Source: Candidatus Methylopumilus universalis
GTDB lineage: Bacteria > Pseudomonadota > Gammaproteobacteria > Burkholderiales > Methylophilaceae
Direction: 5' to 3'
NCBI GenBank assembly: GCA_945883335.1
Contig: CAMCXI010000007.1
Coordinates: 1 to 64,000 of the forward strand
DNA: 64,000 nucleotides
Shown here: positions 19,230 to 33,122 of the stretch, one piece after another
Layout: each line of letters opens with the position of its first letter
Position numbering within the stretch: the first letter of the stretch is position 1
The notes under the pieces: generated by a model
Database searches by the model: none
What the model was told of the DNA's origin: nothing
What the model saw: only the letters and a program-made list of their open reading frames with translations
Made by a program: the position numbers and the translations under genes

Positions 19230-20510
19230 TTAGAGTTTAGCGGCCCTTCTGTTTTCGGGCTTCACTAACAGCATATGAACGTCGCCTAAAGCGCGCTCTT
19301 CAAAGCCGCCTTCGCAATAACACAAGTAAAAGTCCCACATACGGATAAAAGTGTCCGGATAGCCAAGCTGTCGTATTTCGGCAATTTTATCGAAGAAATT
19401 CTCACGCCATTTGGCAAGCGTCGTTGCGTAATGCGGCCCAATATCCTCCAAATCAAATAGACGCATATTGGAAGACTTAGTAATGCTAGTGAGCATCGCT
19501 GTCACAGACGGAATGCAGCTACCAGGGAAAATATAGCGCTGAATAAAATCAACGGATTTGATGGCTGAGGCATAGCGCTGATCTGAAATGGTAATTGCTT
19601 GAAGCAACATTATGCCACTTGGCTTTAGAAGACGCCCACAGGCTTCAAAGTAAGTATCATAAAACTGGTGGCCAACCGCCTCTATCATTTCAATTGAGAC
19701 AAGTTTGTCGAACTGGCCTGTCAGGTCTCGATAGTCAGATAATAAAACTTCAATCTTATTTTCAAGCCCAGCATCTTTTATTCTTTCTACTGCTAGTTGG
19801 TATTGAGCCTTAGAAATAGTGGTTGTCGTGATTTTGCATCCGTAATTTTGTGCGGCATAGATAGCAAAACCTCCCCAACCAGTACCAATTTCCAAAATAT
19901 GATCGGTCGGCTTGAGGTCGAGCTTCGTGCAAATCTTTTTAAGCTTTGCAAGAGAAGCTTGCTCTAGTGATTGTTTGGTTGTTTCAAAAAAAGCGGATGA
20001 ATACATCATGGTGGGATCAAGCATAAGCTTGAAGAAATCATTTCCAAGGTCATAATGCGCAGAGATATTTCGACGGCTGCCTGTTTGCGTGTTCTTATTG
20101 ATGCGATGCAACCAAGCTTGTATGGGGGCAGTGATTTTCGCGAAGCTAGATTCAATATCATCTAACAAAGATTGGTTTCTGACCATTAAGCGAATCAGGT
20201 TGGTGAGATTGTCACACTCAAAGTAGTCTTGCATATAGGCCTCGCCAGCCCCAATAGACCCGCCAAAAACGACTTCACCATAAAATTGTGAGTTTTTGAC
20301 TATCAGCGTGACATCGATGTTGGGAAGCGCTGAATTCCCCGTATTTCCACCAAAAATAATCGTTTGATGGTCCTCAACTAATTTAATAGAGCCGTGTTTT
20401 AACTTCTCTAGCCTTTTAATGAGCATGTGTTTCGCCAAGCGATCTAATCTTTTTGGCTTGGGCGTAAACTTGCTTAATAAAGCAATATCTCTGGGGGCAT
20501 TTGTTGACAT
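19230..20510 (-). CDS. cfa: Cyclopropane-fatty-acyl-phospholipid synthase family methyltransferase
   Basis: 426 aa, full CFA-synthase architecture: an N-terminal lipid-binding domain with FGGSIGAGEAYMQDYFECDNL, then ISAHYDLGNDFFKLMLDPTMMYSSAFF, the SAM motif HILEIGTGWGGFAIYAA, the SIEMIEAVGHQFYDTYF active-site segment, and QRYIFPGSCIPS. It transfers a methyl or methylene group from SAM to the double bond of membrane phospholipid acyl chains. It is the last gene of a nine-gene minus-strand operon that also holds a second, smaller member of the family, a desaturase and a flavin oxidoreductase, so the final product may not be a plain cyclopropane. Confidence 0.88.
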   Translation of the reverse strand: MSTNAPRDIALLSKFTPKPKRLDRLAKHMLIKRLEKLKHGSIKLVEDHQTIIFGGNTGNSALPNIDVTLIVKNSQFYGEVVFGGSIGAGEAYMQDYFECDNLTNLIRLMVRNQSLLDDIESSFAKITAPIQAWLHRINKNTQTGSRRNISAHYDLGNDFFKLMLDPTMMYSSAFFETTKQSLEQASLAKLKKICTKLDLKPTDHILEIGTGWGGFAIYAAQNYGCKITTTTISKAQYQLAVERIKDAGLENKIEVLLSDYRDLTGQFDKLVSIEMIEAVGHQFYDTYFEACGRLLKPSGIMLLQAITISDQRYASAIKSVDFIQRYIFPGSCIPSVTAMLTSITKSSNMRLFDLEDIGPHYATTLAKWRENFFDKIAEIRQLGYPDTFIRMWDFYLCYCEGGFEERALGDVHMLLVKPENRRAAKL

Positions 20511-20529
20511 GTTTTAAGTCTGCTCTAAA

Positions 20530-21264
20530 TTAAGGATGCGGTATAAAGGGTACACGTTTAAGCTTTAATTTTAAAGCTTGCCAGTAAATAGCTAACGTGA
20601 CTTTCAAGGTCATTAATGGGTACATCATCAATACTTTTGCCATGGATGCATGACTAATTTCAATGCGATTTAACATCAGCGTAGCATCAAATTTTTTGAT
20701 GTTTTTCTGCTGATTTTCCATATGAATAAATAGCTGGTCTGAAGGCGCTTTGAATCGCCAGTCATATTGCATATCCATTGGCATAAATGGGGATACATGA
20801 AATGATTTTGCAAATTCAAAGCGATAGGGCGGTGCTTGTTTTTTGCAATTGAGGACATAAGAGTGCCGCTCACCCCAAGGAGTGTTAGTAATTTCTGCCA
20901 CAATAAACTCTAAAGTTTCATCTGCCGCATCAAAGCAATAATAGAAGCTGACAGGATTGAATATGAATCCAAAATAACGAAGATGTGTCAGCAGCCTGAT
21001 TGGACCATCAGTTTGTTCGCCGGTTTCTTTTTGAATAAGTGTTCGAATTGATTGATCGAGATTTTGTTCTTTTCCATTGAAATAATCGCCAGGCCAAAAA
21101 CTGGCAAGATTGCGACCTTGGTAAGACCAAAACCAAAAGGGCTTGAACAGATTTGGGAGCTCGGCTAAATCTAAATACATCATGAATAATTTATATTTAA
21201 AACCATGGTTCACCGGAAAGTAGCGCTGATGATTGACTACCCCAGCGTAGATGCAGCTAGCCAT
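20530..21264 (-). CDS. DUF1365 family protein
   Basis: 244 aa. The start at 21264 lies one base after the stop of the upstream flavin oxidoreductase (TAA-T-ATG) and gives the usual family start MASCIYAGVVNHQRYFP; the frame extends to 21378 but that part lies inside the upstream gene. Family landmarks are HGFKYKLFMMYLDL, LTHLRYFGFIFNPVSFYYCFD and the EITNTPWGERHSYVL segment. DUF1365 proteins have no settled activity but recur next to CFA-type methyltransferases and FAD oxidoreductases, as here, which points to a role in lipid modification. Confidence 0.88.
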   Translation of the reverse strand: MASCIYAGVVNHQRYFPVNHGFKYKLFMMYLDLAELPNLFKPFWFWSYQGRNLASFWPGDYFNGKEQNLDQSIRTLIQKETGEQTDGPIRLLTHLRYFGFIFNPVSFYYCFDAADETLEFIVAEITNTPWGERHSYVLNCKKQAPPYRFEFAKSFHVSPFMPMDMQYDWRFKAPSDQLFIHMENQQKNIKKFDATLMLNRIEISHASMAKVLMMYPLMTLKVTLAIYWQALKLKLKRVPFIPHP

Positions 21265-21265
21265 A

Positions 21266-22534
21266 TTAGACACAAGCAAAGCTTGCTTGTAATTGCGCAT
21301 GCTTGAAGTGTTCAAGGGCTGCAAGCGCGCTAAATAAACCATCTTCATGAAAGCCATTGCGCCAATATGCACCGGCATATCCAGTGCGATTCACGCCGCT
21401 AATGTCTGCATGTCTAAGCTGAGCTGCGATACCTTGCGGTGTAAATACAGGGTGCGTGTAATTGAGTGATTTTATGATTTTGCTTGGATCAATCTTGCTT
21501 GTATGGTTAAGAGTGACGAGAAAGGGCTCTGGCGACTCGAGAGACTGCAAAATATTCATGTTGTAGGTCACTGCCGCAAGATTAAGTGGTTGCTCCGTGA
21601 GGTGGTAGTTCCAAGCAGCCCAAGCGAGCCTCTTTTTAGGCATTAAGTTAACATCAGTATGAAGAACGATTTGATTGTTTTGGTACGGAATTGCACCCAA
21701 TATCTCAATTTCATCCTGGGATGCATCTTCCAGCATGGCTAAAGCTTGATCGCTATGACAAGCAAAAAATACCCAGTCAAACAATTCGGCAGGTTTATTT
21801 TTTGGTTTAATGACTACGCTGTAATGATTTCGGCTCACCGATTCAATCGGAGTATTGAGTCGGATATTGTCTTTAAAGCCTTGCGTGAGTTTTTCGACAT
21901 AAGCCTTAGAGCCGCCCTTAATAACCCGCCACTCAGGCCTGTCAGAAACACTTAACATGCCATGGTTGTGAAAAAAGCGAATAAAAAACTTGGCCGGGAA
22001 TTCAAACATTTGCTCAGTTGAGGCTGACCAAATCGCTGAACCCATGGGAATGACATAATGCTCAATAAAGTTTTTACCATAATGGTGTAGCTTTAAATAC
22101 TCACCAAAAGGCATGTCTGCTTGGCTGTCATCCAGCAATTTAGGGGCTTCTTTATTGAAACGTAAAATATCTTGAATCATCCCCAGAAAGCGGGGGCGAA
22201 ATAGATTTCGTCTTTGCGCGAAAAGGCTGTTCAAACTTGTGCCGTTATATTCAAGGCCTGAAGACTCATCATGCACACTGAAACTCATTTTACTGCTTTG
22301 GGTTTCTACACCGAGTTCGTTTAGCATTTGAATGAAGTTAGGGTAGGTCCAGTCGTTATAAACAATAAACCCTGTGTCGATGTTGTATTGCTTCTCAAAA
22401 GCTTCTATCTCGTGGGTGTGGGTATGGCCACCCACATGGCTGCCCGATTCAAACACCGTGACTTCATGTTCTTTCGCTAACTTCCATCCAAGCGTATTTC
22501 CAGAAACTCCAGCCCCAATAATTGCGATTTTCAT
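21266..22534 (-). CDS. FAD-dependent oxidoreductase (amine-oxidase/phytoene-desaturase fold)
   Basis: 422 aa. The Rossmann FAD motif is at the start (IAIIGAGVSGNTLGWKLA, then VFESGSHVGGHTHT), with the second conserved segment NIDTGFIVYNDWTYPNF and the C-terminal FAD motif GVNRTGYAGAYWRNGFHEDGL. The family is usually annotated NAD/FAD-binding or amine oxidase; in this gene neighbourhood it most likely oxidises a lipid acyl chain. Its ATG overlaps the desaturase stop by four bases and its stop is one base from the DUF1365 start, so the three are tightly coupled. Confidence 0.88.
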   Translation of the reverse strand: MKIAIIGAGVSGNTLGWKLAKEHEVTVFESGSHVGGHTHTHEIEAFEKQYNIDTGFIVYNDWTYPNFIQMLNELGVETQSSKMSFSVHDESSGLEYNGTSLNSLFAQRRNLFRPRFLGMIQDILRFNKEAPKLLDDSQADMPFGEYLKLHHYGKNFIEHYVIPMGSAIWSASTEQMFEFPAKFFIRFFHNHGMLSVSDRPEWRVIKGGSKAYVEKLTQGFKDNIRLNTPIESVSRNHYSVVIKPKNKPAELFDWVFFACHSDQALAMLEDASQDEIEILGAIPYQNNQIVLHTDVNLMPKKRLAWAAWNYHLTEQPLNLAAVTYNMNILQSLESPEPFLVTLNHTSKIDPSKIIKSLNYTHPVFTPQGIAAQLRHADISGVNRTGYAGAYWRNGFHEDGLFSALAALEHFKHAQLQASFACV

Positions 22535-23448
22535 TTAACTGCTCGCTTCTGCGATAAGACCTCAGTAGGTACTTTTCGTAAGTCCCAAATTAAGCCAAGC
22601 GCAGAAAGAATTTTAAGTCCGTAATAAGTCAAATCGATTTCCCACCAATAAAAGCCCTGTCTTGCTGAACTAGGAAAATGGTGATGATTGTTATGCCACC
22701 CTTCACCTAAAGTTAAAATAGCAATTAGGCTGTTGTTGCGGCTGTCGTCATTGGTCATGAATCTTCGTTTTCCCCAAACATGCGCAAGCGAGTTAACAGT
22801 AAATGTCATGTGATAGAGAAATACGGTTGAGATGACAAAGCCCCAAACCAGCAGTTGCATGCCGTTGGTATGTAAATGAGGAGCGCTGCTTTCCAGCCAT
22901 GCCCCCAGCACAAACAAACTAATTGCCAGACCAATTGGGGCAACAGCGTCATAACGATCTAAGAATTTTAGCTCGGGATACTGCATTAAATCTTTTACAC
23001 GTTCATTTTTAGAAGCAAAATTTTTATTTGCTAGAAACCAACTGATGTGACTCCAAAAAAACCCATGCTGCTTTGGAGAGTGTGGATCATTTGGGTGATC
23101 AGAGTGCGCATGGTGATGTCTGTGATGCGAGGCCCACCATAATGGGCCTCGTTGCGCTGCGCTCGCCCCTAAAAATGCAAAAATAAATTGAATCGCCCTC
23201 GAAGTTTTAAAAGCTTTGTGGGCAAAGTAGCGATGATAAAAACCTGTGATCGCAAACATTCTTAATACGTAAAGCACAATGGCAATGATAAGAGCGGTAG
23301 TGCTAAACTCAATCCAGAAAACCGCAAAGCAAGCCAAATGGAGAATGACAAAAGGTAATATACGTAACACTTCTATTTTGTCTGGATTTTTTTCATAGGC
23401 ACCAACCGCATTGCTGTCAAACCAAGCCAATATCGTTTTGAAGATCAT
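22531..23448 (-). CDS. Membrane fatty-acid desaturase (acyl-CoA delta-9 type)
   Basis: 305 aa integral membrane di-iron desaturase. Three His boxes are present: HRYFAH (72-77), a dense box HHRHHHAHSDH (from 108), and GEGWHNNHHHFP near residue 260, spaced as in stearoyl-CoA-type desaturases, with four membrane helices in two pairs. It would introduce a double bond in acyl chains, supplying substrate for the neighbouring methyltransferases. The stop overlaps the oxidoreductase start (ATGA) and the ATG abuts the lipocalin stop without spacer. Confidence 0.92.
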   Translation of the reverse strand: MIFKTILAWFDSNAVGAYEKNPDKIEVLRILPFVILHLACFAVFWIEFSTTALIIAIVLYVLRMFAITGFYHRYFAHKAFKTSRAIQFIFAFLGASAAQRGPLWWASHHRHHHAHSDHPNDPHSPKQHGFFWSHISWFLANKNFASKNERVKDLMQYPELKFLDRYDAVAPIGLAISLFVLGAWLESSAPHLHTNGMQLLVWGFVISTVFLYHMTFTVNSLAHVWGKRRFMTNDDSRNNSLIAILTLGEGWHNNHHHFPSSARQGFYWWEIDLTYYGLKILSALGLIWDLRKVPTEVLSQKRAVK

Positions 23449-23991
23449 TTACGGCGCATCCTTCTTCATCGTTGATTCCCACTCTTGTGGGATTTTAACT
23501 AGTTTATTAATGTCGTAGCCCATGGCTTGAATTTGCGCGACGAAACCACTGTACTGATCATTCGTCATACTAGGGTTACGCGACATCAGCCAGACGTAGT
23601 CTCGGGCATTTCTTGCAATGATAGTGGTTTGATAAGCCTCGTCTAAATAAACAATTCTGTACTCAGCTTTGATGGGCCATATAAATTGCATTCCCCAAAT
23701 GGCATTGCCTGTATTTGGAACCACAAAGCCTGTTGGATGGTAGCTTTTCAATTCGCCCTTTGGGCTACCTTTTCTAAATGTAAACGTGGTTTTAATTGAG
23801 CCATCAGTATCTAATGCATAAGATTCGATGCCGTTATGGACATCTTTTTCGATGAGCGTTGGAATACATGCGATGACATACCAATCTCCCATGAACTTGT
23901 TTAGATTGACTTGTTCCACGGTTTTGATAGGCGGCAAACTAGAACAGGCAGTAAGGACAGCACACATTGAAGCCAAAATAGATCTTTTCAT
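23449..23991 (-). CDS. Lipocalin family lipoprotein (Blc-like)
   Basis: 180 aa. A lipoprotein signal peptide ends in the lipobox LTAC; the lipocalin GxW motif is GDWYVIACIP, followed by blade strands GSIKTTFTFRKGSPKGE, and the C-terminal VWLMSRNPSM segment. Outer-membrane lipocalins of the Blc group bind fatty acids or lysophospholipids. It differs clearly from the canonical Blc copy at 52951 and is embedded in the lipid-modification operon, so it may carry the modified lipid. Confidence 0.88.
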   Translation of the reverse strand: MKRSILASMCAVLTACSSLPPIKTVEQVNLNKFMGDWYVIACIPTLIEKDVHNGIESYALDTDGSIKTTFTFRKGSPKGELKSYHPTGFVVPNTGNAIWGMQFIWPIKAEYRIVYLDEAYQTTIIARNARDYVWLMSRNPSMTNDQYSGFVAQIQAMGYDINKLVKIPQEWESTMKKDAP

Positions 23992-24005
23992 TGTTTAATC
24001 GCCTT

Positions 24006-24626
24006 TTATTTAAGGACGTAATCAATACGCCCATCTTCCGTTAGTGATTGCATTGCCAGCCATTCGTCATCTTGCCCATACCAAATGTCTATCTTGAATT
24101 TTGCCGTATCAATCTTGTAGTGATTCGCTTTAACATTTTGACCTTTAACTAAAATTGACTCTTGCCCCAGTGAAGAAATATTCGCGCTTAAATAGTCACC
24201 AGTTTGTGGATTGAGTAATTTTTTTTGTTGGAGTATTTTAGGGTTCCAATAAGCAAAGGTCATCACACATTCTGCATTGATTTCAGCCGAAGCAGGGGCT
24301 GATATTTTAAAAGCAGCTTTTTCTTGGTGACCTTTAACAACCGTTGTTTTGCTATTTTCTTGTGTTTTGGCTTCTAATTTCTTTAGGCAGTTATTTTCCC
24401 AAGTTTCATTCGCTTGGTGGTGATATTTAAAAAAACTAATTGAAAGTATTTTAATATTAAATTTGGCATCACTTTTAAGTATTTGTTGATTGTTTTCTTT
24501 TTCAGAAAGCACAAATTGATGGGTGCCAATTGGCTTGCCATCCATGGACACATCAAAGTTCCAGCTTTGCGCTTCCGCAATTATTGGCATCGAAACGATT
24601 AAACAGCTGATGAGAAATTTATTCAT
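24006..24626 (-). CDS. Exported protein, DUF6134-like
   Basis: 206 aa. A signal peptide (MNKFLISCLIVSMPIIAEA) precedes a beta-rich domain beginning WNFDVSMDGKPIGTHQFVLSE and containing NETWENNCLKKLEAKTQ and CVMTFAYWNPKIL. I recognise it as the DUF6134/DUF3108-like group of periplasmic proteins that sit beside CFA-type lipid genes; no activity is known. Two Cys, in NNC and ECVM, may form a disulfide. It is separated from its neighbours by 14 and 19 bases in the operon. Confidence 0.75.
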   Translation of the reverse strand: MNKFLISCLIVSMPIIAEAQSWNFDVSMDGKPIGTHQFVLSEKENNQQILKSDAKFNIKILSISFFKYHHQANETWENNCLKKLEAKTQENSKTTVVKGHQEKAAFKISAPASAEINAECVMTFAYWNPKILQQKKLLNPQTGDYLSANISSLGQESILVKGQNVKANHYKIDTAKFKIDIWYGQDDEWLAMQSLTEDGRIDYVLK

Positions 24627-24645
24627 ATTTTAAATTACCTCAACA

Positions 24646-25410
24646 TTAGCTTTTTGGGAACCAAGGAAAAAAAGCATTAGTCTTCAGAATATAAGTTTTA
24701 TAGGCAGGACGTCTTTCAGCAATGTCTGCTTCAAGAAGCTTTACGCCAGTCACTTTTACCAATAAATAAATCATCAATACAGATGAGATCGTCGTCCACC
24801 AAAATCCAGCTGCCACTGCAATCATCCCGTAACCAAGCCAAATGCAGGACTCGCCAAAATAATTGGGGTGTCTGGTGTAGCGCCAAACCCCTTGATCTAA
24901 TACCTTACCTTTATTTTCGGGCTTAGCTTTGAAATGTTTCAATTGGGTATCACCCGTGACCTGGAAACACATCCCAATTACCCAGACGCTCAAGCCCAGC
25001 CAGTCTAGGGCGTTTAGAGAAGTCGTCGATTGCAACGCGAAGTTCAAAGGTAATGAAATAAACCAGGATAAAAACGCTTGAAGCACAAACACTAGGTAAA
25101 TGCTTTTATATCTAAAGTTCGGTTCATTTCTTGCTCTAATGGCTTGGTAGCGTAAGTCCTCAGTTTTGTTGTGGTTGCGTACGTGCAGATAGGTTGACAG
25201 TCTGAATGACCAAACAGTCACTAAAAACAGCACTAAGTAAGCACGTTCACTAGGTTCAGACACTAAACAAAATGTGATGGCTGTTGAGATAAAGAAAAAC
25301 ATTGCCCACAGGCTGTCTACCACAGTCACATTGTTGCTTTTTAAACTCAACAACCAGCCAAATAACGCTAGAGCTAGCATTGGTAATAAGGTAATAAAGT
25401 AAATTTGCAT
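24646..25410 (-). CDS. DUF1295 family membrane protein (steroid 5-alpha-reductase-like)
   Basis: 254 aa with about six membrane helices. The C-terminal cofactor motif RYTRHPNYFGESCIWLGYG is characteristic of the isoprenylcysteine methyltransferase/5-alpha-reductase superfamily that binds NADPH; the N-terminal VVDSLWAMFFF segment is a DUF1295 landmark. It probably reduces a double bond of a lipid or isoprenoid substrate. It lies between the DUF6134 and DUF2878 genes in the operon. Confidence 0.88.
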   Translation of the reverse strand: MQIYFITLLPMLALALFGWLLSLKSNNVTVVDSLWAMFFFISTAITFCLVSEPSERAYLVLFLVTVWSFRLSTYLHVRNHNKTEDLRYQAIRARNEPNFRYKSIYLVFVLQAFLSWFISLPLNFALQSTTSLNALDWLGLSVWVIGMCFQVTGDTQLKHFKAKPENKGKVLDQGVWRYTRHPNYFGESCIWLGYGMIAVAAGFWWTTISSVLMIYLLVKVTGVKLLEADIAERRPAYKTYILKTNAFFPWFPKS

Positions 25411-25443
25411 GGCTGATCTTTCGTCAAATGACTTTAGTTAATA

Positions 25444-25947
25444 TTATTTCTGTTTTGATGCAGCAATTTTAAGTAATACAGGTACGATTAATCCCCAGCC
25501 TATTGCTAGATAAATAAGCGCAGCGGTTGTATGAGTCAGGCTCAATGCACCCAAACGCGCTCCACTCCAGTAGGACAGTGGGCCAGAAATCGCGCCAATT
25601 AAAATTGCCAGAAACTTTTTGTTTTGTAGCCAAGCCAGACTAATGTTGAGGGTGCTTGCAAATAGTGCCCACAAAACGACCATCCAAGGTGGCGGAAGAA
25701 TATCAGGCCAGAAATTGACATGGCCGAATGTTATCCATCCAAGACTCTGTGGAATACCATCAAAAATAAGACCAATAATAAGAGCAGTGAAGAGCAGTTT
25801 ACATTCAAAAACTGGATCATCGGATCTTGCCACATGCGCTAAAAGAACCACAGATGCGATCAATACACCTATCCAAGGCAGCTGATTGGCTCCGCCAAGA
25901 ACACAAGAAAACCATCCAATTTGAAAACCTACTAGATTAAATAACAT
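25444..25947 (-). CDS. DUF2878 family membrane protein
   Basis: 167 aa with five membrane helices: MLFNLVGFQIGWFSCVLGG, VLIASVVLLAHVA, LLFTALIIGLIFDGIPQSLG, WMVVLWALFASTLN and the final ALIYLAIGWGLIVPVLL. The ATG at 25947 has TAAGG five bases upstream and follows the upstream stop by seven bases; a start at 25968 would overlap that gene. DUF2878 has no known function and typically accompanies DUF1295 and CFA-like genes, as here. Confidence 0.85.
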   Translation of the reverse strand: MLFNLVGFQIGWFSCVLGGANQLPWIGVLIASVVLLAHVARSDDPVFECKLLFTALIIGLIFDGIPQSLGWITFGHVNFWPDILPPPWMVVLWALFASTLNISLAWLQNKKFLAILIGAISGPLSYWSGARLGALSLTHTTAALIYLAIGWGLIVPVLLKIAASKQK

Positions 25948-25954
25948 GCCGGCC

Positions 25955-26995
25955 TTATCTTTTCTCAAAAAGGTAATGGCCTACCCACCACTCTTGGCCA
26001 TTATCAAAACCAAATAGTTCTGCGCATGCCATAAAGAAAATACGCCAGCGTTGTCGCCATATCTGAACATTTTCTGCACCATAACAACTTGCCAAAATAG
26101 GCGTTATTTCGTTGCGATGCGCATCCATGTTTTCCAACCAAGCATTCGCTGTCTTTTCATAGTGTGTGCCGTCCCAGCGCCATTGTTGAGAGATTTTGAG
26201 ATGGTCTTGAAAGTGAAGCGGGGTGTCATCACTTGGCATGAAGCCACCGGAGAAAAAGAACTGACTCATCCAGTCATCATCGCCTTGCACTTCAAAGGCA
26301 TAAGGAACGTCACGATGGCAGAAAATATGCATGAAAAACTTACCTTGGGGTTTAAGCCATTGGTTAAGCTTGCCAAATAATATTTGGTAGTTACGCATAT
26401 GCTCAAACATCTCTACCGAGACGATGCGATCAAATGTTTGGCCTATTTTAAAGTTATTCATGTCACAAGTGATGACATTTAAATTAGTCAAATTTCTCCT
26501 CTCTGCTTCTGCCAGAATAAAAGCGCGTTGAGAGTTGGAATTTGAAACAGATGTAATCTGACTATTGGGATAGTTTTTTGCCATCCATAATGACAAAGAG
26601 CCCCAGCCACAGCCAAGTTCTAAAATAGTTTGTCCGTCATGAAGGTCGGCATGCTTGCAAGTTTCTTTTAATGAAGCTGACTCTGATTCATTCAGATTTT
26701 TAACGTCGCTGGACCAATAACAGCTACTATATTTTCGATGCAAACCAAGCGCTAGGTTAAAAAAGCCGGCGGGTACTTCATAATGCTGGGCATTCGCCAT
26801 TTCAGGTAATGGCGCAATTTGAGCAAGCTTCATACTTTCAAAGAATTGCATTCTCAAATCAGCCGCTGTTTCACAGTTGCTTGCTGAAATTTCTTTGAGC
26901 CTCTGTTTACAAAGCTGTCTGATGCCAGCTCTAATAACGAAGTCTGGCATATAGCCGCGCTCTGATAAATAAATGGCTAATTTAGAAAAAATCAT
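25955..26995 (-). CDS. Short CFA-type SAM-dependent lipid methyltransferase
   Basis: 346 aa; start at the ATG at 26995, with CAGGA eight bases upstream. The N-terminal ~110 residues differ from true CFA synthases, but the catalytic part is conserved: LELGCGWGSLSLWMAKNYP (SAM motif I), VSVEMFEHMRNY, and FSGGFMPSDDTPL in place of YIFPGG.LPS. This is the first gene of the operon. Small proteins of this type next to desaturases and flavin enzymes are candidates for methylating unsaturated acyl chains on the way to branched or furan fatty acids; I cannot tell which from sequence alone. Confidence 0.85.
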   Translation of the reverse strand: MIFSKLAIYLSERGYMPDFVIRAGIRQLCKQRLKEISASNCETAADLRMQFFESMKLAQIAPLPEMANAQHYEVPAGFFNLALGLHRKYSSCYWSSDVKNLNESESASLKETCKHADLHDGQTILELGCGWGSLSLWMAKNYPNSQITSVSNSNSQRAFILAEAERRNLTNLNVITCDMNNFKIGQTFDRIVSVEMFEHMRNYQILFGKLNQWLKPQGKFFMHIFCHRDVPYAFEVQGDDDWMSQFFFSGGFMPSDDTPLHFQDHLKISQQWRWDGTHYEKTANAWLENMDAHRNEITPILASCYGAENVQIWRQRWRIFFMACAELFGFDNGQEWWVGHYLFEKR

Positions 26996-27100
26996 AATGT
27001 ATCCTGAGTTATCTTTAATGTAATCTATGCAATTATGAGGCAAAAGTACCAAGAAGGTTTTATCGTTTGAACAATTTATTAATTATTGACTCTTAAGAAG

Positions 27101-28143: not shown

Positions 28144-28560
28144 ATGATTAACAAAAGAGTACTCATACCGGTTATTTTTGTTTCGGCGCTAATTGCCATA
28201 TATCTTTTTTCGTTGTTTAAATTTAATCACGCCAATCCTACTCAGCAGACCCAACTTCGTAAAGTAGGGGATGAGTGTGCCGGCATCTCAGAAAATGCAG
28301 TTGCCAAGATGACTGCAGTTGTGGAGTTTCAGAAATTAGAAATTCAAGGTAGAAAGATCAACGTCATGCGTCTTTGTATGAAAGACCATGGATTCGTTGA
28401 AAATCCTAATTGGTTCGTTTACGCGCAGCCAATTTCTCTTGCCTCATCTGTCAAACAAAACATCTCCCAAGATGAGGCAATCGAAAATTTAAGGCGTTTA
28501 GATATGATGCAATTTGATGAAACCTCGAAGCATCCTATTTACTGGTCGCCTCGTTCTTAA
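28144..28560 (+). CDS. Small single-span exported protein of unknown function
   Basis: 138 aa, starting directly after the prxQ stop. An N-terminal membrane segment (VLIPVIFVSALIAIYLFSLF) is followed by a ~110-residue periplasmic part with a conserved-looking ECAGIS Cys and an RLCMKDHGF Cys. I recognise no family. Its last 26 bases overlap the convergent protease gene at 28535. Being third in the msrA-prxQ unit, it may take part in periplasmic oxidative defence, but that is only context. Confidence 0.72.
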   Translation: MINKRVLIPVIFVSALIAIYLFSLFKFNHANPTQQTQLRKVGDECAGISENAVAKMTAVVEFQKLEIQGRKINVMRLCMKDHGFVENPNWFVYAQPISLASSVKQNISQDEAIENLRRLDMMQFDETSKHPIYWSPRS

Positions 28561-29575
28561 GCGATGTTGAGTCTTTTAACGTATTGATCTTCAGTGCTAA
28601 TTCTTCAGATGCATAGCTATCCAATGCTTCAATAGAAGCTTTTAGTTTATTGAGGCGATCAAAATCTTTGTCTTTAAGCGCCATTTCCGATTGTAATTTA
28701 AAGGTATCTAGATGTTTTGGGTTGTAAGTCAATGCCTTATCAAGGTCAACCTTCGCTCCAGCCTCATTGCCACTACCATATTCCGAAACAGCTAAGAAGA
28801 ACCAAGCATCTGCAGCATTGGGCTCACTTTTTGACCATGCCTCTGCAACAGTGCGAAGATTTTTCCAATCATGATTTTGATAAGGGATGACAACTTGCAT
28901 AAAAAATGGCTGTTGTTGATAAGCGAGCGCCCAAAAAGGTGATCCCTCAGCTTTTAATGTTGGTTGTTCTTCAGAAGTGATGAGTTTTCTAATCCATTCA
29001 ACAGGAAGGCTGTAAAAAAACCCCTGCGGACCTGGACTTTTAAAACTTGTAATACCAACCAAGTTAAATTGTTGATCGAATAAAGCACCACCACTTGACC
29101 CAAGTGAAAAAGCAGCATCTGATCTAATGATTAAACCATTATCGTATGGATATTTTGCTTTGATACTCCCGTAGGATGGTTGCGGCACATTGTTACCATT
29201 AGGGTAGCCAACACTGAACACTTCTTCTTCTATATTGAGGGAGGCAGTATCTCGCATAGGAACTGGTTTAAATGGCAAGCCTTCGAACTTTAGTGCACAC
29301 AAATCATGCTTCCAGTCTGCTTTGAGCCCAATAGGTTTATATCCATCCCCGTATTTAGCTATGTTTGCTCCTTTTCCGTCAGCTAAGACGTGGCAGTTCG
29401 TGACAACATACTCCTTACTAATGACCACTCCAGTGCCTGTGCCGACATTACCATTTTCAAGTTCAACAGAAATCTGAACAATCGAGTCATGCAGTTGTAA
29501 TAATTGACCTATGTTTGGTTGCGCATTGACCAAGTTGGCATTGACTAATAGGGCCAATAAAAGCATTTTTTTCAT
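28535..29575 (-). CDS. Exported trypsin-like serine protease with C-terminal TPR repeats
   Basis: 346 aa; the ATG at 29575 begins a signal peptide (MKKMLLLALLVNANLVNA). The S1C-type triad is His62 (TNCHVL), Asp91 (WKHDLC) and Ser161 (GSSGGALF). Residues ~220-320 hold TPR-like helices (AADAWFFLAVSEYGSGNEAGAKVDLDKAL and so on). No PDZ domain, so not DegP. A periplasmic protease or processing factor. It is a diverged paralogue of the gene at 30271, which points the other way; both share the ADWKHD.C segment and a FKSPG segment. Confidence 0.85.
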   Translation of the reverse strand: MKKMLLLALLVNANLVNAQPNIGQLLQLHDSIVQISVELENGNVGTGTGVVISKEYVVTNCHVLADGKGANIAKYGDGYKPIGLKADWKHDLCALKFEGLPFKPVPMRDTASLNIEEEVFSVGYPNGNNVPQPSYGSIKAKYPYDNGLIIRSDAAFSLGSSGGALFDQQFNLVGITSFKSPGPQGFFYSLPVEWIRKLITSEEQPTLKAEGSPFWALAYQQQPFFMQVVIPYQNHDWKNLRTVAEAWSKSEPNAADAWFFLAVSEYGSGNEAGAKVDLDKALTYNPKHLDTFKLQSEMALKDKDFDRLNKLKASIEALDSYASEELALKINTLKDSTSLKNEATSK

Positions 29576-29634
29576 CTTTAATTCCAATATGTTAGTTTGC
29601 TGGTTATTTTTTTAGTCTTTATTCGTTTTATTAG

Positions 29635-30270: not shown

Positions 30271-31272
30271 ATGATTAACAGGATATTTTTTTTATTTTTT
30301 TTATTGGCTTCATCCAACATTTCACACGCCGCGCCTCCAACGGAGTTAATTTACAAACTTAAAGGTAGTATTACCAAAGTTCATAGTGTGAATGCTAGTG
30401 GAGGAAGGAGCACAGGAACAGGTGTTGTTGTTGCTGAAAACAAAGTGGCGACTAATTGTCATGTATTGATTAACTCTGTAGGCATGAATATTGGGTCTAT
30501 GGGAGAGAACTTTCAGCCGATTGGCCTGCAAGCTGACTGGAAGCATGATGTTTGTATTATGAACTTTATGTATCTTCCGCTAAAGCCTGCGGTATTGGGT
30601 GACAGCGAACATCTCCAATATGAACAAGACATTTTCTCAATTGGTTTTCCTGGAGGGCCACCAAAGCCACTCACTACTTGGGGCACAATTAAGGCGCTTT
30701 ACCCTTTTGAAGATAGTGTGGTCATTAGAACATCTGCATCTTTTCAAATGGGCGCAAGTGGCAGCCCGTTGTTCGATTCTGAAGGTAAGGTCATTGGGAT
30801 TAGTACTTTTAAGAGTCCTGGCCGCAATTCATTCTTCTTCAATATTCCGGTGAAGTGGGTCAAGTCTGCGCTTAATTTGCCTGTACTTGAGTTTAGTCGC
30901 GATTCCCAACCCGCATTTTGGGATGTGTCGTTAGAACAAAAACCATTTTTTATGCAAATTGTTTTGCCGCTTCAAAATGAAAAGTGGAACGAAGTCGAGG
31001 TTATTGCCAAACAATGGCTAAACGCTTCGCCCAATGATACCGAGGCAATGTTTTATAATGCTGCGGTTAAGGGTAATGCTGGAGATTTAGAGGGAGCAAA
31101 AGCAATATACCAGCGTATTTTAAAGACAAACGCTAAACATGCTGAAAGCATCATAGGCTTGGCAAATATCGCTAATAAACAAGGAAAATCAGGCGATTTT
31201 GAAGTTTATAAAAAAAGACTCACAGAACTTAACTTTGATGACGATCAACTCAGTTTGCTGATCACCAAATAA
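30271..31272 (+). CDS. Exported trypsin-like serine protease with C-terminal TPR repeats (paralogue)
   Basis: 333 aa. Signal peptide (MINRIFFLFFLLASSNISHA), S1C-type triad His64 (TNCHVL), Asp93 (WKHDVC), Ser163 (GASGSPLF), and a C-terminal TPR pair (FYNAAVKGNAGDLEGAKAIYQRIL, AESIIGLANIANKQGK). AAAGGTG precedes the ATG. Same architecture as the minus-strand gene at 28535, with an unusual GASGSPL around the active Ser. The two flank the structured intergenic element at 29635-29791. Confidence 0.85.
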   Translation: MINRIFFLFFLLASSNISHAAPPTELIYKLKGSITKVHSVNASGGRSTGTGVVVAENKVATNCHVLINSVGMNIGSMGENFQPIGLQADWKHDVCIMNFMYLPLKPAVLGDSEHLQYEQDIFSIGFPGGPPKPLTTWGTIKALYPFEDSVVIRTSASFQMGASGSPLFDSEGKVIGISTFKSPGRNSFFFNIPVKWVKSALNLPVLEFSRDSQPAFWDVSLEQKPFFMQIVLPLQNEKWNEVEVIAKQWLNASPNDTEAMFYNAAVKGNAGDLEGAKAIYQRILKTNAKHAESIIGLANIANKQGKSGDFEVYKKRLTELNFDDDQLSLLITK

Positions 31273-31435: not shown

Positions 31436-31900
31436 ATGAAAACAGAAAATCCAAATCGAATGCCAAAATTGCTTGGATATTTAGGCCTTTTGCCTTTTAT
31501 TATTCCGACTGTATTCCTTTTTTATGACTATCATCATTTTATGGTTTGGAGAAATGTTCTCATCAGTTATGCAGCAGTCATTTTAAGTTTCTTAGGTGCC
31601 GTTTATTGGGGCGTTGCAATGATCGTGAGAGAGATGTCGATTAAAAAACGTAATGTGATGCTTTCATGGAGTGTGATTCCATCCATTGTTGCTTGGATAT
31701 GCCTTTTAATCCCGCAAGTCTATGGATTAATCCTTTTGTCTATCTTCTTTGTCATTTCATTCTTCATGGATATGCAATTAACAAAGTCGGAAGCAAAACC
31801 CGCTTGGTATATTCCTTTGAGATTCCAATTAACGGTGGTTGTTACTACATGTTTAGTAACAGCTGCGTATTTGGTAAAACCAGTGTTGATTAACGCATAA
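31436..31900 (+). CDS. DUF3429 family membrane protein
   Basis: 154 aa with five membrane helices. It begins with a GYLGLLPFIIPTVFLFYDYH segment, contains the family ISYAAVILSFLGAVYWGVAM motif and ends in an LTVVVTTCLVTAAYLV helix. DUF3429 is unstudied but often found beside photolyases in aerobic proteobacteria, as here: its last 11 bases overlap the end of the convergent photolyase-like gene. TTGAGGGC lies seven bases before the ATG. Confidence 0.82.
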   Translation: MKTENPNRMPKLLGYLGLLPFIIPTVFLFYDYHHFMVWRNVLISYAAVILSFLGAVYWGVAMIVREMSIKKRNVMLSWSVIPSIVAWICLLIPQVYGLILLSIFFVISFFMDMQLTKSEAKPAWYIPLRFQLTVVVTTCLVTAAYLVKPVLINA

Positions 31901-33122
31901 GTATTTCTTCTCCGACATAGCTCCAATATTTAGAGAAACGCATTAAACCTCTTGCATGAAGTTTTTCTTGAGTAACTTTGGAGTAAATAGCGGGTTCATC
32001 AATATACGTAACATGACATTTGGATAATAGATGCTTTAAAGTCATGTTCGGCGTCGATTGAGTTACTACATGACTGCAATTTAAAGCATTCAGCACAGCC
32101 AATGTATCGCCGATCCATACCTCTACTTCTGGCATTTCAGCGAGGCAGTCTGCAATAAACTGTATTCTATTTAATGACCAGTTTTTGTAGTGTCGCGGAT
32201 CAAATACAAATATCTTTTTTTGGTCATGTTGATAAAGTAGATGCGTCGGCGATAGCATTTCGTCGGTGAATAAAACCACTGGTTCATTTCCCTGATGCTC
32301 GAAGTTAACTTGAGAGCGTTGTGACGAAGTTACTCTTGCTGGTGCTGTTGTGGGTCTAAAAAGTGAGGCATCTAGTTCCTCGTAGCTCTTTTTGAAGGGA
32401 CAAACGGCCTGACAACTTTTACATAGTTGATTGTCTGTATATTTGCTTAAATTCTCTTGATTGAAAAAGTAGGGCTTGCTACCAAATGTGGATGCCACCC
32501 ACTGCCAAGAAAGCGTATTGGATGCTTGATCGCCATCAAGTAACAAGTCATGCATCCAGCTCGCAGCGATTTTCCAATCAATGCCTAGCCAATGAATCAG
32601 ATAGCTAGAAAGCCACATTCTTGCGTGGTTGTGAAGATAGCCTGTCTCTTGAAGGGTGCGCACAAAGTGGTCAATGCATGGTAACTTTGTATTGGCCTCA
32701 GTCACGAGAGGGGGGAGCGGATTTCTCTTCAACTCAACCTTAGGTGCTTCCATTTCAGAATGAATACGATCACCAGATAAATACCAAATCTGGCGCCAGT
32801 AATCTCGCCAAGCGAACTCAAAAAGCAATTTATCGTTGCCTCTCGTTGATTTTTCTTGGGCAAAAGTGATCGCCTCTGCTAATGAAATACACCCGTGCCT
32901 CAGATAAGGTGATAAATAAGTCACCTCGCCATTGAGATAGTTACGAGATTTTTCATAACGCTCAGGCTTAATATTGGATAGTCTTTTTAAGCCTTCTGTG
33001 CGCCCACCAACCCAATTCTCAGTTAAGTTAGCACCCATATGGTCCAGGAAGATCGTCTTAATTTGATTAATTCGTTCGGATCTTAATTGAGGGATATTGA
33101 TTTTGATTGGTGTCATGGTCAT
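31890..33122 (-). CDS. Photolyase/cryptochrome-like FAD protein with swapped domain order
   Basis: 410 aa. Residues ~60-235 are the FAD-binding helical domain of photolyases: YLRHGCISLAEAI, FEFAWRDYWRQIW, HNHARMWLSSYLIHWLGIDW and DGDQASNTLSWQWVAS. A Cys motif CKSCQAVCP (C234, C237, C241) follows. Instead of preceding it, an alpha/beta domain follows (~280-390: PVVLFTDEML, KKIFVFDPRHYKNW, VEVWIGDTL). Normal photolyases have the alpha/beta domain first. It may be a photolyase-like flavoprotein of changed function. It diverges from the DUF2256 gene. An ATG at 33116 is an equal start. Confidence 0.82.
   Translation of the reverse strand: MTMTPIKINIPQLRSERINQIKTIFLDHMGANLTENWVGGRTEGLKRLSNIKPERYEKSRNYLNGEVTYLSPYLRHGCISLAEAITFAQEKSTRGNDKLLFEFAWRDYWRQIWYLSGDRIHSEMEAPKVELKRNPLPPLVTEANTKLPCIDHFVRTLQETGYLHNHARMWLSSYLIHWLGIDWKIAASWMHDLLLDGDQASNTLSWQWVASTFGSKPYFFNQENLSKYTDNQLCKSCQAVCPFKKSYEELDASLFRPTTAPARVTSSQRSQVNFEHQGNEPVVLFTDEMLSPTHLLYQHDQKKIFVFDPRHYKNWSLNRIQFIADCLAEMPEVEVWIGDTLAVLNALNCSHVVTQSTPNMTLKHLLSKCHVTYIDEPAIYSKVTQEKLHARGLMRFSKYWSYVGEEILMR

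Follow-up and report, generated by a model that had tools for sequence, protein, structure and literature searches.

A nine-gene operon of Candidatus Methylopumilus universalis with a predicted complete set of genes for dimethyl furan fatty acid synthesis

Introduction

Furan fatty acids (FuFAs) are membrane lipids that are consumed by singlet oxygen, and the published bacterial pathway for their synthesis is made up of four enzymes (PMC7380195). UfaM methylates cis-vaccenate, UfaD desaturates the product, UfaO, a DUF1365 protein, inserts an oxygen derived from O2, and FufM methylates the furan ring, giving the dimethyl form (dimethyl-FuFA). The defining activity of FufM is the S-adenosylmethionine-dependent methylation of 9M5-FuFA, for which the enzyme is sufficient on its own (PMC7380195). 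The set described in Rhodopseudomonas palustris CGA009 comprises UfaM, a second cyclopropane fatty acid synthase-type (CFA) protein and FufM, while in Rhodobacter sphaeroides the neighboring genes RSP1087-1089 are not needed for FuFA (PMC7380195). Here we analyze a stretch of 64,000 nucleotides from Candidatus Methylopumilus universalis (assembly GCA_945883335.1, contig CAMCXI010000007.1, positions 1 to 64,000; referred to as the window), in which a block of nine genes, judged by its sequence, is very likely a complete operon for dimethyl-FuFA biosynthesis accompanied by conserved accessory genes. The core pathway is already known; the nine-gene operon, including fufM, is new as an arrangement.

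The operon and its four core enzymes

The block extends over positions 19230-26995 on the minus strand of a genome assembled in 12 contigs (1.6 Mb in total, 92.8% complete), the relatives of which appear to be Methylophilaceae. The original prediction, made from the letters of the sequence, had described nine genes separated by 0-33 bases or overlapping shortly, and both this tight packing and the families that it named were confirmed, by the coordinates of the open reading frames and by a Pfam scan of the nine proteins (CMAS twice, DUF1365, NAD_binding_8/amine oxidoreductase, FA_desaturase, Lipocalin_2, DUF6134, DUF1295 and DUF2878). The features are the following.

25955-26995, minus strand (longest frame, from a TTG, to 27052): fufM-type methyltransferase, 346 amino acids from the ATG, coclaurine N-methyltransferase (CNMT) family and FufM clade; predicted to place the second methyl onto the furan ring
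25444-25947, minus strand (longest frame, from a TTG, to 25968): DUF2878 small protein (PF11086, 8.6e-42), hydrophobic by eye and presumably membrane-bound
24646-25410, minus strand: DUF1295 steroid-5-alpha-reductase-like membrane protein (PF06966, 1e-65; PF02544, 7.5e-12); predicted reductase acting with FufM
24006-24626, minus strand: DUF6134 protein (PF19630, 1.4e-50) with a signal-like N-terminus by eye
23449-23991, minus strand: Blc-type lipocalin (PF08212, 1.9e-35) in which LTAC resembles a lipobox by eye; predicted to carry lipids
22531-23448, minus strand: acyl desaturase with three histidine boxes (PF00487, 4.3e-23); predicted supplier of cis-monounsaturated acyl chains
21266-22534, minus strand: ufaD-type flavoprotein (NAD_binding_8/Amino_oxidase); predicted to turn the methylated chain into a conjugated diene
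20530-21264, minus strand (longest frame to 21378): ufaO-type DUF1365 protein (PF07103, 9.5e-85); predicted O2-dependent furan-forming oxygenase
19230-20510, minus strand: ufaM-type fatty acyl methylase (UfaM signature and clade); predicted to start the pathway by methylating the cis double bond
26996-27085, no strand: intergenic region of about 90 bases, read in the sequence as the presumed promoter common to fufM and a divergent msrA

The furan assignment follows from the match of four of these genes to the characterized set by identities, clades and the UfaM signature. As references we used the proteins of R. palustris JSC-3b and Rhodopseudomonas AAP120, which were located via the phototrophic genomes of the right family; for the larger collection of named loci used below, the best 80 were kept from at least 564 relatives. 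The comparison with Ufa proteins that the original prediction had proposed gave identities of 39-40% for UfaM, 40-41% for UfaD, 31-32% for UfaO and 49% for FufM. The order ufaD-ufaO-ufaM is common to the window, JSC-3b and AAP120. In addition, AAP120 has a second CFA gene and a FufM-type gene, matching the set published for CGA009, and the search of JSC-3b gave UfaM and FufM only, with no second CFA.

The full CFA-type gene is, on its sequence, a UfaM-type methylase distinct from CFA synthase. The identity to the second CFA of AAP120 is 33%, lower than to UfaM, and in a tree of 50 hand-chosen rows the 21 UfaM sequences stood on one side of a branch with a Shimodaira-Hasegawa-like approximate likelihood ratio test (SH-aLRT) support of 99; the two stand-alone CFA rows fell apart from them, with a long-branch warning there. 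When aligned to the E. coli CFA (6bqc), the window enzyme retains E239 (E277 in E. coli) and Y317 (Y361), while E274 and A278 replace the G and the H of the G-M-F-E-H motif and Q304 replaces H266. Neither the G-M-F-E-H motif nor an equivalent of His266, both of which have functional roles in the E. coli cyclopropane fatty acid synthase, is therefore present in the window enzyme. The combination E-M-x-E-A plus Q was common to 42/42 complete UfaM-type rows (representing 41 different genes, as one was entered twice) of an alignment of 47 rows, three incomplete, recruited for their similarity to the window gene; the stand-alone CFA rows had G-M-F-E-H and H in 2/2 cases and the UfaM signature in 0/2. 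The position of Cys139 is occupied by S, A or C and is therefore not diagnostic. All the rows of this alignment that come from more distant loci, with the exception of L089, have UfaD and UfaO in the same locus.

The short CFA-type protein is assigned to the FufM type, a predicted ring methylase giving dimethyl-FuFA. Its label in the original prediction was right as to the family (CMAS) and could be refined, since the protein matches coclaurine N-methyltransferase over its full length (6gkv, E 1.2e-71) and CFA synthase only secondarily (6bqc, E 1.5e-29). It is 49% identical to the FufM-type protein of AAP120 vs 25-27% to UfaM, and each of six Rhodopseudomonas-like genomes searched (six of six) had one FufM-type protein (50-52% identity) plus one or two matches at 24-31%. 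The 27 FufM rows of the 50-row tree were on one side of a branch (SH-aLRT 100), membership being judged by the clade with the single CNMT-type protein of Rhodopseudomonas and not with the RPA0924 sequence itself. Of the two methyltransferases that had been placed in the chain, one is assigned as UfaM-type and the short one as the predicted ring methylase. Both match CMAS strongly (289 and 131 bits), and nothing else in their own genome does (the next are 39.8 and 19.3).

By sequence, the flavin oxidoreductase is classed as UfaD-type and the DUF1365 protein as UfaO-type. The former is 40-41% identical over ~420 residues to UfaD of both AAP120 and JSC-3b, and it is this protein, not the FA_desaturase as originally proposed, that takes the role of the pathway's own desaturase. 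The DUF1365 protein had been listed with no role and becomes the putative oxygen-inserting enzyme. In longest-frame numbering, at least 93% of 48 UfaO-type sequences share the residues H50-x-R-x-x-P-x-x-H58, D70 and D98, and we consider them candidate metal ligands of the predicted oxygenase. A fold model of UfaO (three sequences, predicted local distance difference test, pLDDT, 70) bore a weak resemblance to nitrobindin (best E 0.012, template modelling score 0.31) that was not used.

Put together, the pathway would start with cis-monounsaturated acyl chains provided by the FA_desaturase. The UfaM-type enzyme would methylate the double bond on phospholipid acyl chains to a methyl-branched trans-monoene, the UfaD-type flavoprotein would desaturate this monoene to a conjugated methyl diene, the UfaO-type DUF1365 protein would insert the O2-derived oxygen, with formation of the furan ring, and the FufM-type enzyme would put the second methyl on the ring. 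The biochemistry of these last four steps is published for the Rhodobacter and Rhodopseudomonas enzymes and is assigned to the window genes by homology. The SRD5A-like DUF1295 protein might then act on the dimethyl-FuFA branch, either on an intermediate or on an oxidation product, and the lipocalin, DUF6134 and DUF2878 proteins may handle or place the furan lipids in the envelope. The product would shield the membrane against singlet oxygen. From the products first envisaged (a methylated, branched or furan acyl chain), the furan, more precisely the dimethyl furan, is retained by the UfaM/UfaD/UfaO/FufM set; the methylated and the branched chain are disfavored by the UfaM signature and the full set of genes.

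Conservation of the block

The genome-neighborhood survey called for by the original prediction was carried out at several scales. In a sample of 61 genomes of relatives, DUF2878 was present in 25 (host included) and in 6/10 of the host genus, and up to 20 kb around this gene was compared from the 24 genomes besides the host. These own-order loci include 21 from the host family and three from other families of the order. All nine genes in the same order were found in 15/24, one of them (L035) from another family. The block is cut by the contig end in L023, L034 and L044; L036, L037, L039 and L040 have no DUF6134 match, L039 also being without a lipocalin match and L037 ending within the last gene; L033 and L043 contain just a portion of the block. 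In the genomes of L033, L043 and L044, UfaD is found on a different contig or more than 60 kb away. The nine-gene arrangement is not due to chance and its gene order is conserved. L043 comes from a genome of 1.35 Mb (G024) where fufM-DUF2878-DUF1295-DUF6134 are kept together, and a UfaD 46% identical to that of the host lies ~68 kb away.

More widely, 30 further loci (the wider loci) were chosen for family spread out of 73 other genomes with DUF2878. UfaD, UfaO and UfaM were all present in 20/30, the loci lacking this set being L087, L088, L089 (with the UfaM-type gene only), L093, L103, L106, L112, L114, L115 and L116 (where the DUF2878 match is below the cut-off). Seen from the methylase, the UfaM-type gene comes with homologs of UfaD and UfaO in 19/19 own-order and 20/21 wider loci. 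FufM was found in 5/30 wider loci, DUF1295 in those five and in 0/25 of the others. The lipocalin behaved similarly (4/5 with FufM vs 0/25 without), as did the desaturase (3/5 vs 1/25), and DUF6134 matched in 19/24 own-order loci vs 1/30 wider ones. Three loci from other orders of the same class (L096, L101 and L113) have eight of the nine families arranged as Desat-UfaD-UfaO-UfaM-DUF2878-DUF1295-FufM-lipocalin. L094, scanned as an example, has as neighbors a short-chain dehydrogenase/reductase (SDR), a SnoaL-like protein, a chalcone-isomerase-like protein and DUF3833. In L087 and L088 (genomes G307 and G260) DUF2878 stands in a locus without other families of the block, near genes read by eye as recA, recX and sucCD in the case of L088, and both genomes have UfaD elsewhere. 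A first scan of the named genomes for DUF2878 gave no match.

Finally, co-occurrence was counted over 398 genomes of Pseudomonadota, with UfaD in 151, DUF2878 in 74 and FufM in 33. UfaD was present in 71/74 of the genomes with DUF2878 (28.1 expected; Fisher p 7e-32, relatedness ignored), two of the three exceptions being matches below the family cut-off, and the two genes were within 12 kb in 54/71 shared genomes. Similarly, UfaD was present in 30/33 genomes with FufM (12.5 expected; Fisher p 6e-11, relatedness ignored) and within 10 kb of it in 20/30. The association of FufM with DUF2878 was weaker (11/33, 6.1 expected, p 0.026). Neither the order survey nor this count refuted the original prediction.

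DUF1295, a frequent partner of FufM

The DUF1295 gene is a frequent partner of FufM. In the 33 genomes of a phylum-wide FufM survey, 30 loci with 1.5 kb flanks could be assessed, and DUF1295 was on the same strand within 1.5 kb of fufM in 22/30 (21/29 if the window is left out), with at least one such locus in each of 13 families. DUF1295 is found upstream of fufM in named Rhodopseudomonas loci, and directly upstream in 53/79 assessable named loci, mostly from Bradyrhizobium and kin, one of the 80 starting too close; these two observations were made with earlier DUF1295 and CFAshort profiles, and the 22/30 count with re-collected families. DUF1295 also accompanies FufM in 22/23 own-order loci, the exception (L044) being cut by the contig end. 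The gene order differs between groups, and therefore the inheritance of one arrangement does not explain the pairing.

What the protein might do is suggested by its family. Its structure model (pLDDT 83) gave only weak Foldseek matches, none at or below 0.001, to the sterol C14 reductase 4quv (E 0.007) and to the SRD5A structures 7c83 (E 0.14) and 7bw1 (E 0.33), and phmmer against 7bw1 was also weak (E 0.018). Steroid 5-alpha-reductases are characterized by their fold and a C-terminal NYFGE-type motif. Since dimethylation in the published work requires nothing beyond FufM, a role of DUF1295 in the supply or the fate of the product is more likely than one in that step, and we predict a reductase on the dimethyl-FuFA branch. 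Attack by singlet oxygen converts the dimethyl furan into a ring-opened enedione, and one improbable version of this prediction is a furan-recycling reductase, which would reduce the C=C of the enedione with NADPH to a 1,4-diketone that recloses to the furan. If this were true, FufM and DUF1295 would make a regenerable membrane antioxidant, and the neighboring lipocalin, msrA and peroxiredoxin genes would be parts of one repair module extending from proteobacteria to green algae. In the open-licence PMC literature we found no paper linking DUF1295 to FuFA, and the DUF1295-FufM link appears to be new there; a combined search on furan fatty acids, FufM and the two families returned no paper that contains DUF1295 or DUF2878.

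Other accessory genes

The desaturase has as its closest solved structure Acyl-CoA desaturase 1 (4ymk, 1.4e-32), and at least 93% of 25 sequences share H72, H77, H109, H112, H113, H252, H255 and H256; the enzyme may supply the cis-monounsaturated substrate. The lipocalin matches the NCBIfam Blc family at 6.3e-22, below the family's own cut-off; it may be a lipid carrier, as the original prediction had it, and together with DUF6134 may handle lipids in the envelope. DUF2878 is tied to the FuFA core, where it may have a helper role; this link is new only in its furan assignment and breadth, given that an operon of Aeromonas containing the gene is already in print (see below). The locus and its relatives connect DUF1295, DUF2878, the desaturase and the Blc-type lipocalin to the FuFA pathway.

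Regulation and neighboring genes

A link to sigma-E/ChrR or light-response loci had been suggested for genes of this kind, and it holds in relatives. A cluster of MerR/B12-binding (LitR/CarH-like) genes has a member directly upstream of the block in 8/24 own-order loci, an extracytoplasmic function (ECF) sigma factor with a RskA- or ChrR-type protein is near it in 5/24, and a LitR-like, ECF or ChrR-type gene in 11/24 combined; the Pfam scan of these regulators covered one LitR-like and one RskA-type protein, the ChrR-type protein and one ECF factor. The regulators heading the block vary (LitR-like; ECF with RskA-type anti-sigma; ECF with ChrR cupin) among L021, L022, L023, L024, L025, L027, L028, L029, L035, L039 and L040. 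Such variation upstream of the same block suggests an exchange of regulators.

In the host and its genus the searches made did not show this link. One LitR query in six genomes of the host genus gave no full-length match, only short MerR frames of 140-144 residues, and LitR control in the genus was provisionally set aside on this single query. One ECF query in the same number of host-genus genomes returned one factor each. That of the host genome adjoins a RseA-like frame (by eye), TGATC was not found within 200 bases upstream of fufM, and sigma-E/ChrR control was likewise provisionally set aside for the host, on a genome-wide search for ECF factors and not for ChrR itself.

A divergent msrA-peroxiredoxin pair begins at ~27086, next to the operon, and a divergent msrA beside the block is also present in the same-genus loci L030, L031, L034 and L038. 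About 5 kb from the operon, at 31890-33122 (minus strand), a gene codes for a protein with a photolyase-type flavin adenine dinucleotide (FAD)-binding domain (FAD_binding_7), and its end overlaps a DUF3429 gene at 31436-31900 (plus strand). With msrA and the peroxiredoxin, this gene makes the surroundings look like a photo-oxidative stress neighborhood. Two similar trypsin-like protease genes, at 28535-29587 (minus strand) and 30271-31272 (plus strand), flank a DUF4149 gene; the domain was confirmed for the former and judged by eye for the latter. Genes related to these proteases are also found close to the block elsewhere in the family.

Alternative explanations

Several observations count against a dimethyl-FuFA operon with functional accessory genes. 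The references are close relatives of the characterized C. sphaeroides 2.4.1 and R. palustris CGA009 and not those strains themselves, the window UfaO is only 31-32% identical to the DUF1365 proteins of the two Rhodopseudomonas ufaD-ufaO-ufaM clusters, and one metagenome-assembled genome of R. palustris has a plain CFA and FufM with no UfaM-type match. DUF2878 was not found in 36/61 of the sampled relatives, including 4/10 of the host genus, several of these genomes being incomplete, and the co-occurrence statistics are uncorrected for relatedness. The regulatory searches also count here, with no LitR seen in the host genus by one query in six genomes and the ECF factor of the host lying beside a RseA-like frame.

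The operon could make only methyl-branched or cyclopropane fatty acids, the redox genes serving some other lipid. Two of its proteins have CMAS domains and, among solved structures, CFA synthases come closest to the full-length protein; the UfaM signature and clade of this enzyme, its lack of G-M-F-E-H and of the His266 equivalent, and the nearly constant company of UfaD and UfaO make this reading highly improbable, and cyclopropane or simple branched-chain synthesis was rejected on the signature and the clade. It is also conceivable that only the monomethyl FuFA is made, with the short methyltransferase N-methylating some other amine or a lipid head group. The best solved relatives of this protein are indeed alkaloid N-methyltransferases, and FufM-type genes occur without UfaD in 3/33 genomes, all of one genus, which also speaks against the dimethyl-FuFA assignment. 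This possibility seems quite improbable to us given the 49% identity to the Rhodopseudomonas FufM-type protein, the single FufM clade and the presence of UfaD in the other 30 genomes. The plant protein LIME1, 37.87% identical to FufM according to the passages that deal with it, sits on lipid droplets (PMC10940516), a location that likewise argues against the N-methyltransferase reading.

As for the accessory genes, DUF1295 and the others might be passengers of the operon's inheritance with no role in FuFA metabolism. The published assay of FufM needed no partner, so DUF1295 is not required for dimethylation, and the gene is not beside fufM in 8/30 survey loci (all eight in the families f62 and f66) nor directly upstream of it in 26/79 named loci. 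We regard this as unlikely, since the pairing with FufM persists with altered gene order across 13 families and, in the alga Chlamydomonas, to which inheritance as an operon does not apply, singlet oxygen induces a DUF1295 as well as a DUF1365 gene (PMC4067076). A complete dimethyl-FuFA operon with conserved accessory genes remains by far the best explanation in our judgment.

Comparison with known systems

The closest described system is the UfaM-UfaD-UfaO pathway of R. sphaeroides and R. palustris (PMC7380195). The window has homologs of all three proteins, in the order found in JSC-3b, and membrane acyl chains are the presumed substrate here too. It differs in that its ufa genes form a single operon together with fufM and five others, whereas in R. 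sphaeroides ufaM (RSP2144) is apart from ufaD and ufaO (RSP1091/1090) by locus number (PMC7380195). The window fufM belongs to the same family and clade as FufM (RPA0924) of R. palustris, as reflected by the identity to the AAP120 homolog; however, fufM of R. palustris is apart from the ufa cluster (RPA2569-2571) by locus number (PMC7380195), and in the window it heads the operon. This locus would gather all four FuFA enzymes in one operon, and predicts which bacteria can make dimethyl-FuFA.

Partial parallels exist among light- and stress-controlled clusters. In the light-induced LitR/PplR cluster of Pseudomonas, a LitR-type regulator controls UfaM, a FAD oxidoreductase, an SDR and a photolyase, and the passages describing it name no FufM or DUF1295 (PMC9758184). 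LitR-like genes also accompany relatives of the window operon; none was found in the host genus with the one query in six genomes. The RpoE2-ChrR regulon of Shewanella, in the section that presents it, includes cfa and photolyase genes in one operon controlled by the sigma factor (PMC4336711); the relative L022 resembles it in having ECF and ChrR-type genes near the block, but the Shewanella gene is called cfa there, with no furan product named. A predicted operon of Aeromonas salmonicida with NTF2, SDR, FAD oxidoreductase, DUF1365, cfa and DUF2878 genes, which change together and respond to riboflavin, is described with a probable function in fatty acid metabolism; in that description there is no furan assignment and neither FufM nor DUF1295 is named (PMC10012899).

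The most distant parallel is eukaryotic. Among the Chlamydomonas genes that need SAK1 for their induction by singlet oxygen are CFA1, CFA2 (given in another table as CPLD27, coclaurine N-methyltransferase), MSRA3 and genes for a DUF1365 and a DUF1295 protein (PMC4067076). The SAK1 list is much longer than the operon, and in the portion concerned its authors discuss cyclopropane, not furan, fatty acids. The parallel with the window genes and their msrA neighbor is one of gene descriptions. With the pairing of DUF1295 and FufM in 13 bacterial families, matched by the algal list, what these families do and what becomes of the oxidized furan can be tested directly.

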